Shown one piece after another: positions 54,090 to 64,000 of a stretch of 64,000 bases of DNA. Within the stretch, counting starts at the first letter, position 1, and each line of letters begins with the position of its first letter. The translations under genes and the position numbers were made by a program. The notes beneath the pieces are model-generated. The model ran no database searches. It saw only the letters and a program-made list of their open reading frames with translations, and was not told where the DNA came from. The DNA comes from Bacteroidia bacterium (GTDB lineage: Bacteria > Bacteroidota > Bacteroidia > J057): assembly GCA_033391075.1 (NCBI GenBank), contig JAWPMV010000001.1, forward strand, positions 992,001-1,056,000. Direction: 5' to 3'.

Positions 54090-56462
54090 ATGGAATCATT
54101 AGTTTATTTCTTGCCAATTGCGGGTGTCCTGGGCCTGCTCTATACGTTTATACGTTCATCCTGGGTCTCCAAACAAGAAGTAGGTGATGAAAAGATGGCT
54201 ACTATTGCAAAAAACATTGCCGATGGAGCAATGGCTTTCCTCAAAGCAGAGTACAGGGTTTTGGCCTTCTTTGTGGCAGGGGTAGCTGTGTTGCTGGCTA
54301 TAAAAGGATCCAATGAAGCGGGTTCTAACTGGTGGGTAGCAGTTTCTTTCATCATCGGTGCTATTTGTTCAGCATTGGCTGGTTTTATCGGTATGCGTGT
54401 AGCTACCAAAGCCAACGTTCGTACTACAAACGCTGCCAGAAGCTCACTGGGCAAAGCACTTGAAGTTGCTTTCGCTGGTGGATCTGTAATGGGATTAGGT
54501 GTTGTAGGACTGGGGGTTCTTGGTCTCAGCATACTGTTTATTGCTTATCAGAGCATGGGTTTCCAGGCTGCTGATAACTCTGTTAATTCAATCACGATTG
54601 TACTGAATGTACTTTCCGGTTTCTCTCTGGGTGCTTCTTCTATTGCACTTTTCGCTCGTGTGGGTGGAGGTATTTATACCAAAGCTGCTGACGTAGGTGC
54701 TGACCTTGTAGGTAAAGTAGAAGCGGGTATTCCTGAAGACCATCCCCTGAACCCTGCTACTATCGCAGATAATGTTGGAGACAATGTGGGTGATGTTGCT
54801 GGTATGGGTGCTGACCTTTTTGAGTCTTATGTAGGTTCAATCATAGGTACAATGGTTTTAGGTAGTGCCTTTATCGCAGTACCAGAATTTGCCAGTCAGT
54901 TCGGCGGATTAGGAGCTATCTTGCTTCCTTTGACTCTGGCTGCTGTAGGGATCGTAGTATCTATCATCGGTACTTTCTTTGTTAGAGTAAGTGAAGGAGG
55001 AAGTCCTCATAAAGCCCTCAACACGGGTGAGTTTCTTTCTGGTGGTTTGATGCTTTTAGCTTCTTACATCATCATTGTTAATATGCTTCCTGAGAGTTGG
55101 TCTCACAATGGAACCGAGTATTCGGCTATGGGAGTATTCATTGCAGTTATTACCGGACTTCTTTCTGGATTGGCTGTAGGAAAAGTTACTGAGTATTATA
55201 CAGGAACCGGTACCAAGCCGGTTAATAGCATTGTTAAACAATCTCTGACGGGATCTGCAACCAATATCATTGCTGGATTAGGAGTAGGGATGATGTCCAC
55301 AGCTATTCCGATCTTATTGATCGCAGCTGCCATCATGATCTCTCACCACTTTGCAGGCTTGTACGGAATTGCAATTGCTGCTGTAGGAATGTTGGCCAAT
55401 ACAGGTATCCAACTTGCAGTTGATGCATACGGACCTATTTCTGATAATGCCGGAGGTATCGCGGAAATGGCTGAGCTTCCAAAAGAAGTTCGTCAACGCA
55501 CAGACAAACTGGATGCAGTAGGAAATACCACTGCGGCTATCGGAAAAGGATTTGCGATTGCTTCTGCAGCATTGACTGCTCTCGCACTTTTCGCTGCCTT
55601 TATGCAACAAGCAGGAATTACCACTATCGATATCGCTCAGCCTAAAGTAATGTCCGGTCTTTTGATTGGTGCTATGCTTCCTTTTGTTTTCTCTGCTTTG
55701 GCAATGAATGCAGTAGGTCGCGCAGCTATGGCCATGATTCAGGAAGTAAGACGTCAGTTTGACGCGATCCCTGAATTGAGAGCAGCATTGGATATTATGA
55801 AGAAATATGATTCCGACCTTACGAATGCTACTCCAGAAGACAGAGCTATTTTTGATGCTGCTGATGGAAAAGCTGAATATTCTAAGTGTGTGGAAATCTC
55901 AACTGCTGCTTCTATTAAAGAAATGGTTGTTCCTGGTGTATTGGCGATCGTAGTACCAGTACTTGTTGGATTTGCAGGTGGAGCTGAAATGTTAGGGGGT
56001 CTTCTGGCAGGGGTAACTTCTGCCGGGGTATTGATGGCGATCTTCCAGTCAAATGCTGGTGGTGCCTGGGACAATGCTAAAAAGATGTTTGAAGAAGGAG
56101 TTGATATCAATGGTGAAAAATACTACAAAGGTTCTGAGCCACATAAGGCTGCTGTTGTAGGTGATACCGTTGGTGATCCTTTCAAAGATACTTCTGGTCC
56201 TTCTCTCAATATCCTGCTAAAACTTATGTCTGTAGTTGCATTGGTAATTGCACCTACCCTAGCAAGTATGAATGGAGATGCAGAAGCTGAATTGATTCCT
56301 GCTAATAAAGTAGAAATTGTATTGCCAGCTGAAGCTGAGGAAGTGAGTGAAGAGGTGGTTTTAGAGAGCACTGAAGAAGGAAGAACTTTTGAAATTACTC
56401 AAGCTGTTCTTTCTAATCTCAATCTTATCGAAGAAAAGAATCTGAATACCAGCGACTGCTAG
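54090..56462 (+). CDS. hppA: Membrane-bound ion-pumping pyrophosphatase (K+-dependent type)
   Basis: The 790-residue, about 16-helix pump couples pyrophosphate hydrolysis to H+ or Na+ export. The substrate site is clear: [13 protein letters not shown] (201-213), [20 protein letters not shown] (221-240) and the late [12 protein letters not shown] and [16 protein letters not shown]. The stretch [10 protein letters not shown] has Ala482 and Gly485, the pattern of K+-dependent enzymes (K+-independent ones have Lys at the first). After the last membrane helix comes an unusual acidic tail of about 65 residues rich in Glu. A strong promoter and terminator flank the gene. Confidence 0.95.
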
Positions 56463-57759: not shown

Positions 57760-58692
57760 ATGGGCTTTTTCGCCGACCTTTCTCTATATTCAAGCATGAA
57801 AAGCCGGCACATACAAACAGGGATCAGTCTCCTGATCCTTTTGTTTATCCTCATGCTGGCGTATAACTTTTTCCTAAAGCCCAGATCAGCAGCTGAGGAG
57901 GATTACTCAAGCATTGACACCCTTCTTCCAGATAAAGAATTCCTGAAACAAATCCCTGAATCTCTGGTTTTTGTCCAGGGAGGTCGCTATAAAATGGGGG
58001 GTATGGGAAGAGAAACTGAATACGATGAATTTCCCATACATCCGGTGATCCTCAATAATTTCCTTATGGGGAAACAAGAAGTAACATTTGAGGAATACGA
58101 CCAATTTTGTGAGGAGAACTCCCTTCCAAAAGTAAGAGATGCAGGATGGGGGAGGGGCAAGCATCCTGTGATTAATGTGAGCTGGTTTGATGCTATTCGC
58201 TACTGCAATTGGTTTAGTAAGAAAGAAGGTCTGGAAAGCGTTTATATAATGGGAGAAGGATATGGAGGAACCAATTTTCAGGCAAATGGATACCGACTTC
58301 CTACTGAGGCAGAATGGGAGTATGCGGCGAGTGAAGGTAAATTGGGGAAAAAGCAATTGTATTCCGGCTCTAAGCTTATGGCAGAAGTGGGATGGTATGA
58401 TATCAATTCAGGTAATACTACCAAAGAAGTCGCTCAGCTGAAGCCCAATAAGTTGGGAATCTACGATATGTCAGGAAATGTGCGTGAATGGTGTCATGAT
58501 TGGTACAAAGTCGATTATTATAAAGAATCTTCGCTCATAAACCCCAAAGGCAGCGATCTTTATAACAGTCGGATAATGCGAGGAGGTTCATGGATGGATA
58601 AAGAAAGCGATTGTCGCCTGACCAATAGAGACTATATGGATCCCAAGGTCGGGACTATAGTTGCGGGCTTTAGAATCCTAAGGAGATTATGA
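57760..58692 (+). CDS. FGE-sulfatase-domain membrane-anchored protein
   Basis: The 310-residue protein begins with a membrane anchor (about 20-40); ATG 57796 is an alternative start. The rest is a formylglycine-generating-enzyme fold: SLVFVQGGRYKMGGMG, GKQEVTFEEYDQFC, HPVINVSWFDAIRYCNW, YRLPTEAEWEYAA, GNVREWCHDWY and RIMRGGSWMD. True FGEs use two late cysteines to bind copper; only one Cys (DCRLTNRDY) is near the end, so it is unlikely to be an active FGE. The fold also occurs in gliding/T9SS proteins GldJ and GldK, but those are longer lipoproteins. It is likely a structural or binding protein at the membrane. Confidence 0.75.
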   Translation: MGFFADLSLYSSMKSRHIQTGISLLILLFILMLAYNFFLKPRSAAEEDYSSIDTLLPDKEFLKQIPESLVFVQGGRYKMGGMGRETEYDEFPIHPVILNNFLMGKQEVTFEEYDQFCEENSLPKVRDAGWGRGKHPVINVSWFDAIRYCNWFSKKEGLESVYIMGEGYGGTNFQANGYRLPTEAEWEYAASEGKLGKKQLYSGSKLMAEVGWYDINSGNTTKEVAQLKPNKLGIYDMSGNVREWCHDWYKVDYYKESSLINPKGSDLYNSRIMRGGSWMDKESDCRLTNRDYMDPKVGTIVAGFRILRRL

Positions 58693-58804: not shown

Positions 58805-60241
58805 ATGGATAATTTTCGTGCACTGACTACTCGGGAAAAAGCACTCAAGATCAATTTGAACCCTCATTGGTATGGTTCATTTGCCGAGATAGGTGCAGGA
58901 CAGGAGACCGCTGCCCACTTTTTTAAAGCTGGCGGGGCTTCTGGAACCATCGCAAAAACCATGTCTGCCTATGATATGAAGTTTAGCGATGCCATTTATG
59001 GGAAATCCAAGAGATATGTCAGTCGTACCCGTATGGAAAGCATGCTGGAGCATGAGTTCAGTTTGTTGGAAGAACGCCTGACAGAAATTGGAGATACCAC
59101 CTGTTTCTTTGCCATGGCCAATACCATCGAAGCCCTGAATTATAAAAAGACCAATCAGGGCCATGGTTGGATTGGTGTTCGCTTTCAGTTGAGTCCCGAG
59201 ACGCCTCCCAATAATGTGATCATGCATGTGGTGATGCGGGATAGCGAGACCCTTTGGCAGCAGGAAGCCGTTGGTATCATTGGAGTCAATCTTATCTACG
59301 CCTGCTACCATTATCCCCATGATACGGATGCTTTCCTGAGATGCCTGATGGAAGGCCTTTCTCCAGATCGTATTGATGTCGATATGTTCAGTCTGACTGG
59401 TCCTAATTTTGACTGGGTGGATAATCGTCTTCTTAGCCTGAAACTGGTGAAGAATAATATGACCAGAGCAGCGATGTTTGGAGCTGATGGGAACGTACTG
59501 CATGTGGCAGATGTCCTCTACAAAAAGAATATTCTTGTGCTGCGCGGGCGATTCAGACCGGCTACTCTGGTCAATCTGGATATGCTAAAATCTGCCAAGG
59601 CCCAGTTTCTAGAGGAAGAGGACGTAAAAGAAGAAGATACCCTTATCATCGCAGAACTAACCCTCAATAATCTCACGGCAGAAGGGAAAATCGATGATGA
59701 TGATTTCCTGGATCGAGTAGATATGCTGCGTTCTATGGGCATAATGGTCATGGTTTCCAGTTATCATGCGTATTACAAACTGGTTTCCTATTTCACCCAA
59801 TATACCCGCAAGAAGAAGATTGGAATTGCACTCGGTGTCTACAATCTCGAGCAGGTATTTGATGAGCATTACTACAGCAATCTGAAAGGGGGAATCCTCG
59901 AATCATTTGGAACCCTATTCGGAGCAAATATCAAAATGTATGTCTATCCAGCACTGGCCGATTACTCACAGGAGCTTTATACCTGTAAGAATTTTAAGTT
60001 GCCGAAAGAGGAATTGCATTACCTTTTCCAGTACATTTTCTCCAGCAATAAAGTAGAAGACATACGGGGAGTTGATCCCGACCTGCTACACATCACTTCT
60101 GATGCCGTCCTTTCCATGATCAAACAAGGAGAAGAAGGCTGGGAAAAAATGGTTCCTCCTGAAGTAGAAAGAGCCATTAAGGCAGAAGGACTATTCGGAT
60201 ACCAAAGCCCCGCAGGAGCCAAAAGCAGAGCCTTAAAATAA
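58805..60241 (+). CDS. Conserved cytosolic protein of unknown function
   Basis: The 478-residue protein has no signal peptide or membrane span. Its N-terminal part (LNPHWYGSFAEIGAGQETA, FKAGGASGTIAKTMSAYDM) and central phrases (GHGWIGVRFQLSPETPPN, GIIGVNLIYACYHY, YKKNILVLRGRFRPAT) recall a family I remember from cyanobacteria and other phyla, often misnamed TonB-dependent receptor or nicotinate-nucleotide adenylyltransferase. Neither name fits: there is no barrel or plug, and no HxGH adenylyltransferase motif. Strong conservation across phyla as remembered suggests an enzyme. It is convergent with ybbP, with 3 bases between. Confidence 0.7.
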   Translation: MDNFRALTTREKALKINLNPHWYGSFAEIGAGQETAAHFFKAGGASGTIAKTMSAYDMKFSDAIYGKSKRYVSRTRMESMLEHEFSLLEERLTEIGDTTCFFAMANTIEALNYKKTNQGHGWIGVRFQLSPETPPNNVIMHVVMRDSETLWQQEAVGIIGVNLIYACYHYPHDTDAFLRCLMEGLSPDRIDVDMFSLTGPNFDWVDNRLLSLKLVKNNMTRAAMFGADGNVLHVADVLYKKNILVLRGRFRPATLVNLDMLKSAKAQFLEEEDVKEEDTLIIAELTLNNLTAEGKIDDDDFLDRVDMLRSMGIMVMVSSYHAYYKLVSYFTQYTRKKKIGIALGVYNLEQVFDEHYYSNLKGGILESFGTLFGANIKMYVYPALADYSQELYTCKNFKLPKEELHYLFQYIFSSNKVEDIRGVDPDLLHITSDAVLSMIKQGEEGWEKMVPPEVERAIKAEGLFGYQSPAGAKSRALK

Positions 60242-60244
60242 AGT

Positions 60245-62812
60245 CTATACTTCTCTTCGCAATACCTCCAGCGGAGACTTACTCATGATTCCCTGGATAT
60301 TCAGCATGCCTATACCTACGGTTAGGACAATGATGCCTATCAGGATACCCACTGCTGGACCCAAATCGGGTGCATATTCGATCTCAAAACTGAACTTCGC
60401 CAATGCCCAACTAGCAGCCAAAGCCAACAAGATACCGGTAAGGGCAGCCAGAAATCCCAAAAAGATATATTCCCAGGCATTGATCATGAGAATTTTCCGC
60501 CGGCTTCCTCCCAGTGTCCTCAATAGCACAGACTCTCTGATCCGCTGGTATTTACTATTGATCACCGATCCTATCAGGACCAGCAAGCCAATGCTGATAC
60601 TAAAGAATCCCATAAACTGAATTACGAAGGAAACTTTCTCCAATATCTCTTTCCCCACTTTCAGAATCAGGGCCAAATCAATAACTGATACATCCGGATA
60701 ATTCTCGGCTAGTGCACGTTGAAATTTAGCCGAATTTTCATTCGAATTGGTTTTGGTAATAAGGACCCTGAATTGAGGGGCTTCCTCCAAAACTCCCTTT
60801 GGAAAGAGAACTATGAAATTGGTTTGTACTCGTTGGAAATCAACTTTGCGGAAACTTCCTATATAAGTCTTTAATTTTAGACCACTGACATCAAATACTA
60901 CCTCATCTCCTATATCGACTTTGAGGGATCTTTGAGCAAAACCTTCCTCAACCGAGATAAATATGCTGTCCCCGGGATTTTTTATTTCGCCTATCCATTT
61001 GCCTTTAACTACTTCCTCCGAGTCAATGATGCTATCTCTGAAGGTTACGCGATATTCTCTATTCAGGGTTCCACCTCTGGGAACTGTACGCGTAGTATCT
61101 TTCAATAATTCTCTCCTGCTTCTCCCTTTCCACTCTGCCAGCTGCATCGTCACTAAAGGAACATCCTGTACCACAGGAAAATCATAGGTCTCCATCAGCT
61201 TTGTAATCTCGGCTACATCTTCCGGACCTACATCATAAACAACCATATCCGGTCTTTGTCCCTGATCACTTAAGGCAATATTTTTGACCAGCATTCCCTG
61301 CATGAAAAAGAGGGTGGTGATCAAGGCAGTACCCATTCCGATAGCCACTACCATGATGAGGGTTTGGTTATTGGGGCGGAAAAGATTGGCAATACTTTGG
61401 CGGAAAACAAAACTCCAGTTTCTGGGGAAGAATCGCTTGAGCAAGAACATCACTGCATAAGCTGCTCCCGCGAGAATAAGAAAGCCCAAAGCCATAGCAC
61501 CGACAAAAACCAGGGATTCCTGAATTTCGCCGATCTGCAAATATGCAAATCCCCAAATGAAAAGACCGATTCCCAAAATTACCAACCAGTTCCAAATATC
61601 TCTTTTTCCAGAGCCGGAATCGCTGGAAGCTCGCAATGTCATCAAGGGAGAAACCCTTCTGATTGCTAGCAGAGGTAGCAGAGCAAAAAGTACCGCAATG
61701 CCCATACCCACGGCAATTCCTTCTCCCATAGCCGGAAGGGAAATATTACTGCTGGCACTAATAGGCAGGAATTCTCGCAGAATCATAGGGAGAATTACCT
61801 GCAAGGCACTTCCCAGTAAGGCTCCAAGTACAGAACCCACCAATCCCATAAAGAGTATTTGAATGAGGTACATGCTAAAAGTAGAGCCTCCTTCTGCACC
61901 CAAACATCTGAGGATAGCAACCGTGGAAAGTTTATCTTTTATATATACATGTACAGAATTCGCGACGCCAACACATCCCAAAAGCAGAGCTGCAAAGGCA
62001 ACCAGATTTAAGAATCGAGTCAGACCTTCGAATGCATCTCCAAAGTCCTCCCTTCTTTCTTCGACCGTATCATATCGTAATCGCAGTTCCCGAAATCTGG
62101 GACGCATCTCATTCAGGGCTTCTTCGCTCGGGGTATTTCCCCCTAAAGAAAAATAGCGCTTATAGGTAACTCTACTTCCTTTTTTGATCAAAGAAGTCTT
62201 GTCGAGGTATTGCATAGGGATGTAGACAGGAGCATATACCATGCTCATCATCTGCACCTGCCCCGGCACCTGCAACAGTTTGCCTGCGATTTCGAAGACT
62301 ACATTTCCAATCTTGATCGAATCCCCGACTTTGGCATTGTATTGCATCATCAGGGTTTGATCTACCAGGGCTTTCTTTTCCTCTCGGAACTCCTGACCTG
62401 CAGACTCTGGTACCGTTTCAAATTTTCCGAAAAAGGGGAAACCGTCTTCTATGGCTCTGACCTGAACGGCACGTGTATCTCCGGTTTTGGGAAAGAGTAC
62501 CATCGAACTGAAGGCGTATTCATCAGAACTCGGTCCTTCAAAATCCTCTAGGAGAATATTGGCGGAATCCGTAAAGGCCTGATTGCTTTGAATTACCAGA
62601 TCAGCTCCAAGAAGTTCTTTGGATTGCTCATTGATATCTTTTCGAAGATTATCTCCAAAAGTATTGATGGCAACCAGAGCTGCTACTCCGAGAATAATCG
62701 AACCGGTAAAAAGAATAAGTCGGGACCGACTTCTGCGGCTGTCCCGATAGGCCATCTTGAAGGCCCATGCGAGGCTATTTCTTTTGTTTTGTTGAGGAGA
62801 AAGATCGCTCAT
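60245..62812 (-). CDS. ABC transporter permease, YbbP-like (FtsX domains)
   Basis: The 855-residue permease has an N-terminal helix, a MacB-like periplasmic domain (about 50-260), two FtsX four-helix sets (about 270-480 and 730-855) and a second periplasmic domain between. FLNLVAFAALLLGCVGVANS and the final IQGIMSKSPLEVLRRE are typical. E. coli YbbP (804 residues) has this layout. It lies 27 bases after the ATPase gene, and with a TesA-like esterase divergent upstream it forms the ybbA-ybbP/tesA arrangement. What it moves is unknown; lipids or lipoproteins are likely for the family. Confidence 0.82.
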   Translation of the reverse strand: MSDLSPQQNKRNSLAWAFKMAYRDSRRSRSRLILFTGSIILGVAALVAINTFGDNLRKDINEQSKELLGADLVIQSNQAFTDSANILLEDFEGPSSDEYAFSSMVLFPKTGDTRAVQVRAIEDGFPFFGKFETVPESAGQEFREEKKALVDQTLMMQYNAKVGDSIKIGNVVFEIAGKLLQVPGQVQMMSMVYAPVYIPMQYLDKTSLIKKGSRVTYKRYFSLGGNTPSEEALNEMRPRFRELRLRYDTVEERREDFGDAFEGLTRFLNLVAFAALLLGCVGVANSVHVYIKDKLSTVAILRCLGAEGGSTFSMYLIQILFMGLVGSVLGALLGSALQVILPMILREFLPISASSNISLPAMGEGIAVGMGIAVLFALLPLLAIRRVSPLMTLRASSDSGSGKRDIWNWLVILGIGLFIWGFAYLQIGEIQESLVFVGAMALGFLILAGAAYAVMFLLKRFFPRNWSFVFRQSIANLFRPNNQTLIMVVAIGMGTALITTLFFMQGMLVKNIALSDQGQRPDMVVYDVGPEDVAEITKLMETYDFPVVQDVPLVTMQLAEWKGRSRRELLKDTTRTVPRGGTLNREYRVTFRDSIIDSEEVVKGKWIGEIKNPGDSIFISVEEGFAQRSLKVDIGDEVVFDVSGLKLKTYIGSFRKVDFQRVQTNFIVLFPKGVLEEAPQFRVLITKTNSNENSAKFQRALAENYPDVSVIDLALILKVGKEILEKVSFVIQFMGFFSISIGLLVLIGSVINSKYQRIRESVLLRTLGGSRRKILMINAWEYIFLGFLAALTGILLALAASWALAKFSFEIEYAPDLGPAVGILIGIIVLTVGIGMLNIQGIMSKSPLEVLRREV

Positions 62813-62839
62813 GTTTTGGGATAAAATTTGGGGCCGGAT

Positions 62840-63520
62840 TTAAGCTACACTATCTGAAACGATCTCTCCGCCTTTCAAACGGATGATGCGGTCGGTTTTT
62901 TCTGCTAATTCGGGATCATGGGTAACAATGATGAGGGTTGTACCGGCTTCCTGATTGAGTTCAAACATCAGGGCTTCTACCTGTGCAGAGGTTTCATCAT
63001 CGAGATTTCCTGTAGGTTCATCTGCAAAAAGGATGCGGGGCCGATTGGAAAAAGCTCTGGCAAGAGCTACTCTTTGTTGCTCACCACCCGAAAGCTGGCT
63101 GGGATAATGATGGTATCGATCCCCCAGACCTACCCGGGTCAATAATTCTCTTGCGACTTCTTCTGCTCCACTCTTCCCTTGCAATTCAAGTGGGACCATC
63201 ACATTTTCCAAAGCAGTCAGGGTAGGAATTAGCTGAAAATTTTGGAAAATGAAGCCTACATATTCATTCCGGATAGCTGCTCGCTGATCCTCATTCAAAC
63301 TTGCCAAAGAGGAGCCGTGCAATTGAATGTCGCCGGTACTTGCCTTATCGAGACCGGCACAGAGACCCAATAAAGTCGTTTTACCACTTCCAGAGGGCCC
63401 AACAATAGCCATTTTGCTACCGGGAGCTACGTCAAAATGAATGTTTTTTAGAACGGTTAGGAGTGAATCACCACTGGGATAGGATTTACTTAGGTTTTCT
63501 ACGCGTAAAATTGAATCCAT
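62840..63520 (-). CDS. ABC transporter ATPase, YbbA/LolD-like
   Basis: The 226-residue ATPase has Walker A GPSGSGKTTLLGL (about 39-51), signature LSGGEQQRVALARAF (about 140-154), Walker B ILFADEPTGNLD and the switch His in IVTHDPEL. It belongs to the MacB/LolD-type group that works with FtsX-like permeases, here encoded 27 bases downstream. The gene diverges from the TesA-like esterase, an arrangement also found in E. coli (ybbA and tesA). Confidence 0.9.
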   Translation of the reverse strand: MDSILRVENLSKSYPSGDSLLTVLKNIHFDVAPGSKMAIVGPSGSGKTTLLGLCAGLDKASTGDIQLHGSSLASLNEDQRAAIRNEYVGFIFQNFQLIPTLTALENVMVPLELQGKSGAEEVARELLTRVGLGDRYHHYPSQLSGGEQQRVALARAFSNRPRILFADEPTGNLDDETSAQVEALMFELNQEAGTTLIIVTHDPELAEKTDRIIRLKGGEIVSDSVA

Positions 63521-63679: not shown

Positions 63680-64000
63680 ATGAAAAAATACGTCTTTTTT
63701 CCCATTTTAGTCCTAATCATGTGGGCTTGTGCCGGAAGTACAGACAATTCTCAAGCAAAAGAAGAGGAAACAGAAGATCAGACGATACGCATGAAGGAAT
63801 CTCAATCTACTCAAGAGGCTTCCGAGCAGGATGCAAAAAAGAAAATCCTCATTTTTGGCAATAGTTTGACCGCTGGATATGGCCTGGACAATCCTATGGA
63901 CGGATTCGCTGGCCTGATCCAGAGGAAGTTGGAAGAATTAGAATTGCCCTATGAGGTGATCAATGGAGGAATCAGTGGAGAAACCAGTTCAGATGGAAAA
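63680..64000 (+). CDS. TesA-like SGNH esterase/thioesterase, lipoprotein (cut by window end)
   Basis: The first 107 residues are present. A lipoprotein signal ends at Cys17 (LIMWACAGS), followed by a Glu/Gln-rich linker of about 40 residues. The SGNH hydrolase start reads ILIFGNSLTAGYGL, with the nucleophile Ser in GNSLTAG (block I; the usual motif is GDSL/GNSL), then NGGISGETS (block II, Gly). It matches the arylesterase/TesA group that cleaves acyl esters or thioesters in the periplasm. The gene continues beyond the window. It diverges from the ybbA-like gene. Confidence 0.85.
   Translation, partial: MKKYVFFPILVLIMWACAGSTDNSQAKEEETEDQTIRMKESQSTQEASEQDAKKKILIFGNSLTAGYGLDNPMDGFAGLIQRKLEELELPYEVINGGISGETSSDGK

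Follow-up and report, generated by a model that had tools for sequence, protein, structure and literature searches.

A probable relative of NAD-making enzymes with a new job, conserved in Bacteroidota and Verrucomicrobiota

What kind of protein is encoded at positions 58805..60241 (+ strand) of the window, the 64,000-nucleotide stretch of DNA analysed here, and does either of the names associated with its family fit it? An earlier, sequence-only reading had associated it with the labels TonB-dependent receptor and nicotinate-nucleotide adenylyltransferase, judged both to look wrong, and proposed instead an enzyme with an unknown reaction. The answer developed below is that the protein is in all probability related to NAD-making enzymes and has taken up a new job.

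The reading frame, from its ATG start through the stop codon, specifies 478 amino acids, and the protein is real and conserved. In the class and phylum samples, the best match in each other matching genome has an E value of 4e-95 or better, and the single match in the 9.49-Mb host genome is the gene itself. The protein matches no Pfam family up to E 5, and so has no match to PF02464; NCBIfam gave one chance match (E 0.11) and no family, PHROGs and PADLOC gave no match, and a PDB sequence search with the single protein gave chance matches only. A Pfam scan of 38 family members (alignment A2) returned scattered weak matches, each in one member.

A TonB-dependent receptor is built of plug and beta-barrel domains and carries a signal peptide. 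The protein has neither a signal peptide nor a membrane stretch (the 19-residue Kyte-Doolittle mean peaks at 0.94, and the N-terminus, at 0.09, is not hydrophobic), and its AlphaFold2 model, computed from the 38-row alignment A2, is an alpha/beta structure of two domains with no barrel (mean pLDDT 90.5, pTM 0.88). Together with the lack of any Pfam family, these results bear out the earlier view that there is no signal peptide and no barrel, and that the receptor name is unfit.

A Foldseek search of the PDB with the whole model placed NaMN/NMN adenylyltransferases at the top (8aih, E 1.2e-6) and CinA next (2a9s, E 1.7e-4); a second structural aligner, the source of the Z scores given here, re-examined the Foldseek matches only. 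Residues 5-175 align with CinA 6l19_A over 152 residues (Z 16.6, rmsd 2.9), and residues 240-466 with human NMNAT 1nup_A over 200 residues (Z 16.6, rmsd 3.4). The protein can accordingly be divided into an N-terminal domain with the CinA C-terminal/PncC NMN-deamidase fold (residues ~5-175, 58817..59329, +), a linker or middle segment barely covered by structural matches (residues ~176-239, 59330..59521, +), and a C-terminal domain with the NMN/NaMN adenylyltransferase (NadD/NMNAT) fold, in which the canonical motifs are lost (residues ~240-467, 59522..60205, +). As modelled, one chain combines the fold of NMN deamidase with that of NaMN adenylyltransferase, enzymes that act one after the other in the pyridine nucleotide cycle. 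The sequence-only reading had named a clear structural match to a characterised enzyme or receptor as what would refute it, and clear matches to two such enzymes were obtained. Its proposal of an enzyme with an unknown reaction stands in part, as regards the present reaction or ligand.

The N-terminal region (residues 1-242) was also folded alone, with a pLDDT of 88.3 and 2a9s as the best Foldseek match (E 2.3e-4). Ten CinA entries came at Z 16.4-14.3, followed by HcgF at 10.6 and then by YjjX at 7.5 and others below. With the PncC/CinA C-terminal domain (PF02464; 2a9s from A. tumefaciens, 4ct8 from T. thermophilus) the family shares the fold over ~150 residues (Z 14-16.6) and the spacing of the A-E, glycine-rich, G-S and Tyr positions: residues 27-61 (58883..58987, +) read AEIGAGQ...GGAS...SAYD...S, spaced as the AESCTGG...GSS...Y...K of CinA. 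At the offset that scores highest, 6 of the 12 invariant CinA positions are matched with exact spacing, namely A-E, G, G-S and Tyr; the same number is reached in 30 of 5000 shuffles, and 7 of the 12 CinA letters fall inside the motif that selected the CinA set. The CinA and NadD comparison sets were both selected by motif patterns, so that motif invariance within them comes partly from selection, and unselected loci were checked too. In sequence score the family differs from CinA, as hhalign found nothing significant between the two for the N-terminal domain (E 0.5) or the whole protein (E 0.4).

What has become of the deamidase site? The accessible text on A. tumefaciens CinA describes S31 and K63 as catalytic and R145, Y58 and S48 as binding phosphate; the S31A, K63A, Y58A and R145A mutants are inactive and S48A is still active (PMC5384747). 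For the T. thermophilus protein, the available sections of the source propose Lys-301 as general base, with Arg-377 and Tyr-296 binding phosphate (PMC4246079). In the family, by contrast, the catalytic Ser and Lys positions and the phosphate-binding Arg position read I, S and Q, with I29 in 144 of 145 members, S61 in all 145 and Q152 in 144. The phosphate-binding Tyr position is kept as Y56 in every member, and S46 at another phosphate-site position is found in 128, the other 17 having Ala. These equivalences come from the alignment register and not from coordinates, and that between R145 and Q152 is the most doubtful of them.

For the C-terminal domain, the likeness to NadD/NMNAT (TIGR00482; 8aih, 1nup) extends from the fold, over ~200 residues, to the profile level. 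An hhalign comparison of this domain with 16 NadD of the same class gives a probability of 92.5% and E 5e-7 (E 2.8e-6 for the whole protein), covering the GxxNL, YP and VPxxVxxxI stretches, and this supports homology of the domain with NadD. A PDB profile search gave weak phosphopantetheine adenylyltransferase matches at both motif regions (E 0.0013 and 0.003 for the whole sequence, with no single stretch significant), and weak NCBIfam NMN-adenylyltransferase matches were found in 4 of 38 members (best E 0.0065).

The canonical NadD motifs are HxGH and SSTxxR, and in the 16 NadD of the same class S157, I161 and R162 are invariant. Neither HxGH nor TxGH occurs anywhere in the protein, as the earlier reading had said of HxGH. 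At the position of the NadD GSFNPIHxGH, residues 248-259 (59546..59581, +) read GRFRPATLVNLD, with TxVN in place of HxGH. Across the 145 members this position reads TxV[N/H] in 107 (TxVN 82, TxVH 25) and IxVH in 13, with other forms in the rest; xxGH is found in none, and the second His in 41. In 4 of the 145, HxGH-like strings occur away from the place of the NadD motif, and these were put down to chance. Residues 430-437, ITSDAVLS (60092..60115, +), occupy the position of ISSTxxR, with L436 at the Arg position. That position is Leu in 138 of 145 members and Arg in none. At the Ser position 105 members keep Ser and 31 have Thr, and in 52 there is an Arg three residues ahead of the Arg position. 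The Trp of the NadD GxDN..HKWKN aligns to family position 354, which is Glu in 128 of 145. The canonical letters that do remain make nucleotide binding, or even some catalysis, possible in this domain. The name of adenylyltransferase, which the earlier reading had dismissed, thus fits the ancestry of the C-terminal half by fold and profile, and the dismissal holds for the activity, which is unlikely with HxGH and the SSTxxR Arg lost.

Which residues does the family hold constant? All 145 rows of the alignment agree at 36 positions: 29 in the N-terminal domain, 2 in the middle segment and 5 in the C-terminal domain; the placing of 29 of 36 within the 168-residue N-terminal domain has a binomial probability of 3e-8. 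No Cys is invariant. The conserved Gly-rich and aromatic motifs that had been pointed out earlier do hold across the 145 members, AEIGAGQ at 137-145/145 per position, SAYD at 145/145 and HGW at 135, 145 and 145 of 145. A dead N-terminal domain would not be expected to keep such a set, and its concentration there makes it likeliest that the site of the CinA-fold domain has been rebuilt and that the adenylyltransferase-fold domain is degenerate and plays a supporting part.

Relatives were found in Bacteroidota and Verrucomicrobiota, at 36-59% identity to the protein in the searches described next. They occur in 32 of the 149 genomes and 25 of the 100 genera of the class sample (the window's genome counted in both), in 56 of 296 genomes of the phylum sample, which overlaps with the class sample, and in 44 of 145 genomes from the phylum of the Spartobacteria genome behind locus L124. 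A scan of named genomes yielded at least 585 relatives, and the best 80 of these were examined; by record title, 11 of the 80 are Verrucomicrobiota and the remainder Bacteroidota. A tree built from P0001 and 78 of the best 80 relatives (79 rows) has a single branch, with support 100/100, that parts the two phyla. The plasmid and phage collections hold no record with a relative at E 1e-3, and a virus link for the family was rejected, there being two viral-contig loci, one of them partial. A diverged subgroup at 40-42% identity (L030 and matches in G040, G080, G145, G268 and G397) has a match that stops near residue 425, and so is without the segment corresponding to the end of the NadD domain. 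In 14 of the 44 matching genomes of the L124 phylum sample, and in G424, the match breaks in two around query residues 367-401, with a genomic gap of ~30-105 bases between the halves; this suggests that the C-terminal domain there has an insertion or a loop that has diverged.

Has the family protein taken over from CinA or NadD? In the window's genome, CinA is matched by a frame of 423 residues (G000:C1:7715283), and there is also a NadD whose HxGH is intact (G000:C1:6417630). Across the class sample, CinA and NadD each have a match in 146 of 149 genomes (NadD above the cut-off in 142), and all 32 family-bearing genomes have both. Replacement is therefore rejected, and the family protein is an addition. 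PnuC-family transporters are commoner in genomes with the family (29/32 against 71/117, Fisher p 0.0012, uncorrected for kinship or genome quality). Co-occurrence with MbnP is not significant (26/32 family-bearing and 78/117 other genomes, p 0.13), and COX1 as a marker of aerobic life, present in 144 of 149 genomes, cannot discriminate.

The neighbourhoods of 80 named loci, several of them with short flanks, yielded no partner gene shared across lineages. A metallo-beta-lactamase-fold gene on the opposite strand forms the most frequent neighbour cluster, at 12 of the 80, and the others occur at 10 or fewer (MbnP 9, CCP_MauG 9, WYL regulator 8, type III pantothenate kinase 6); these clusters look lineage-bound, and no function is drawn from them. 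At the nine loci with MbnP and a di-haem peroxidase (CCP_MauG) near the family gene (L070, L085, L092, L101, L104, L105, L110, L126 and L131), several of which are Crocinitomicaceae by title, CCP_MauG lies just upstream on the same strand in eight, and a WYL regulator starts within 200 bases downstream in five. In the window, the gene sits between an FGE-sulfatase-domain gene (57760-58692) and a converging FtsX-type permease gene, an arrangement that suggests no operon; the stretch 60245-63520 (-) encodes an FtsX/MacB-type permease and an ABC ATPase. Farther out are a protein with a secretion-system C-terminal sorting domain (PF18962; 56806-57750, +), which adjoins the FGE-sulfatase-domain protein, and a membrane H+-pyrophosphatase (54090-56462, +; PF03030, E 8e-265). 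Adjoining the permease and ATPase stretch is a lipoprotein-like gene with a divergent start at 63680 and a stretch, ILIFGNSLTAGYG, that is GDSL-like when read by eye.

How, then, is the protein to be understood? The N-terminal domain might be a convergent look-alike, a Maf/HcgF-like alpha/beta fold unrelated to CinA in a protein of some other pathway. The lack of a significant sequence link to CinA would fit, and HcgF and YjjX/Maf proteins (the latter at Z about 6-7.5) align with the domain too. CinA entries, however, fill the first ten places and HcgF follows well behind them, and the A-E..G..G-S..Y positions stand at the exact CinA spacing; we consider convergence improbable. HcgF of methanogens, which acts in [Fe]-hydrogenase cofactor biosynthesis, is the next-best fold match of the domain (3wvc) and was solved with guanylylpyridinol according to the entry title, and so this kind of fold occurs in other pyridine-nucleotide chemistry. 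A thioester via a cysteine thiolate is suggested for HcgF in the accessible part of its description (PMC9314073), and with no invariant Cys in the family this chemistry would not be common to both. At the other extreme, the protein could be an active NMN deamidase and NaMN adenylyltransferase that works with non-canonical residues and takes NMN through NaMN to NaAD within one chain. The two folds do correspond to consecutive steps of the cycle, and some adenylyltransferase letters are left (the second His and the SSTxxR Ser). Yet the family reads I, S and Q at the three positions, Ser31, Lys63 and Arg145, whose mutation abolishes A. tumefaciens CinA activity, and it lacks xxGH and the SSTxxR Arg throughout, which makes such bifunctionality very hard to credit.

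A less readily dismissed rival is that both domains are non-catalytic, binding nucleotides of the NAD pathway so as to sense them and to regulate NAD metabolism or a partner. The replacement of the deamidase Ser, Lys and Arg positions and of most of HxGH and SSTxxR would be expected of such a pseudoenzyme, and so would the retention of separate CinA and NadD in the same genomes; the uncorrected excess of PnuC-family transporters points the same way. Against it, polar invariant residues crowd into one domain in a manner that would suit a catalytic site better than a sensor, and no common partner gene accompanies the family across lineages. We regard this account as possible and rather doubtful; sensing without turnover is the first rival to conversion by the N-terminal domain.

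The explanation that we favour, tentatively and a little short of an even chance, is that of a fused and altered cytoplasmic protein of CinA/PncC type and NadD type, with a repurposed nucleotide site in the N-terminal domain and a degenerate adenylyltransferase module. The computed support for it consists of the two folds, the profile homology to NadD, the replaced catalytic positions and the strongly conserved new set of residues. A domain with the NMN deamidase fold would have been fused to one with the NaMN adenylyltransferase fold, and both would then have changed, with most canonical catalytic positions replaced. The kept phosphate-binding Tyr and part of the glycine-rich loop suggest that the N-terminal domain may still bind a mononucleotide-type ligand, in a pocket whose new fixed chemistry, judged from the alignment register, would include E28, Q33, Y56, D57, S61, T107, W122 and H141 among others; its most likely role would be to convert a pyridine-nucleotide-like compound. 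The C-terminal domain, being less conserved, would serve as a non-catalytic nucleotide-binding or structural module, and the whole would work in cells that have a separate CinA and NadD besides. A more specific form of the proposal, which we consider possible and rather doubtful, is a new family of NAD-related enzymes in Bacteroidota and Verrucomicrobiota. Its PncC-fold site would have been reshaped to act on a pyridine or purine mononucleotide, NMN-like or other, by a reaction that is not deamidation, and the tethered, degenerate adenylyltransferase would hand over or sense the nucleotide.

The fusion partner sets the family apart from CinA, which carries a COG1058/MocF domain where the family has its NadD-like one. 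The accessible text of a survey of NMN deamidases describes CinA alone, CinA with N-terminal tails and MocF-CinA, and notes occasional other fusions without analysing them; no NadD-like fusion is seen among the architectures in that text (PMC3855486). No paper on the family was recognised in the open-licence PMC text, which is weak evidence of absence.

For a conserved protein without a name in the family libraries searched, these results offer an identity that can be tested, and they suggest how an adenylyltransferase label could have come about. If the site is not active, the family would be a clear case of a double pseudoenzyme, and its annotation should not say enzyme. If it is active, the protein would represent an unrecognised step or control point in the pyridine-nucleotide metabolism of two large phyla.
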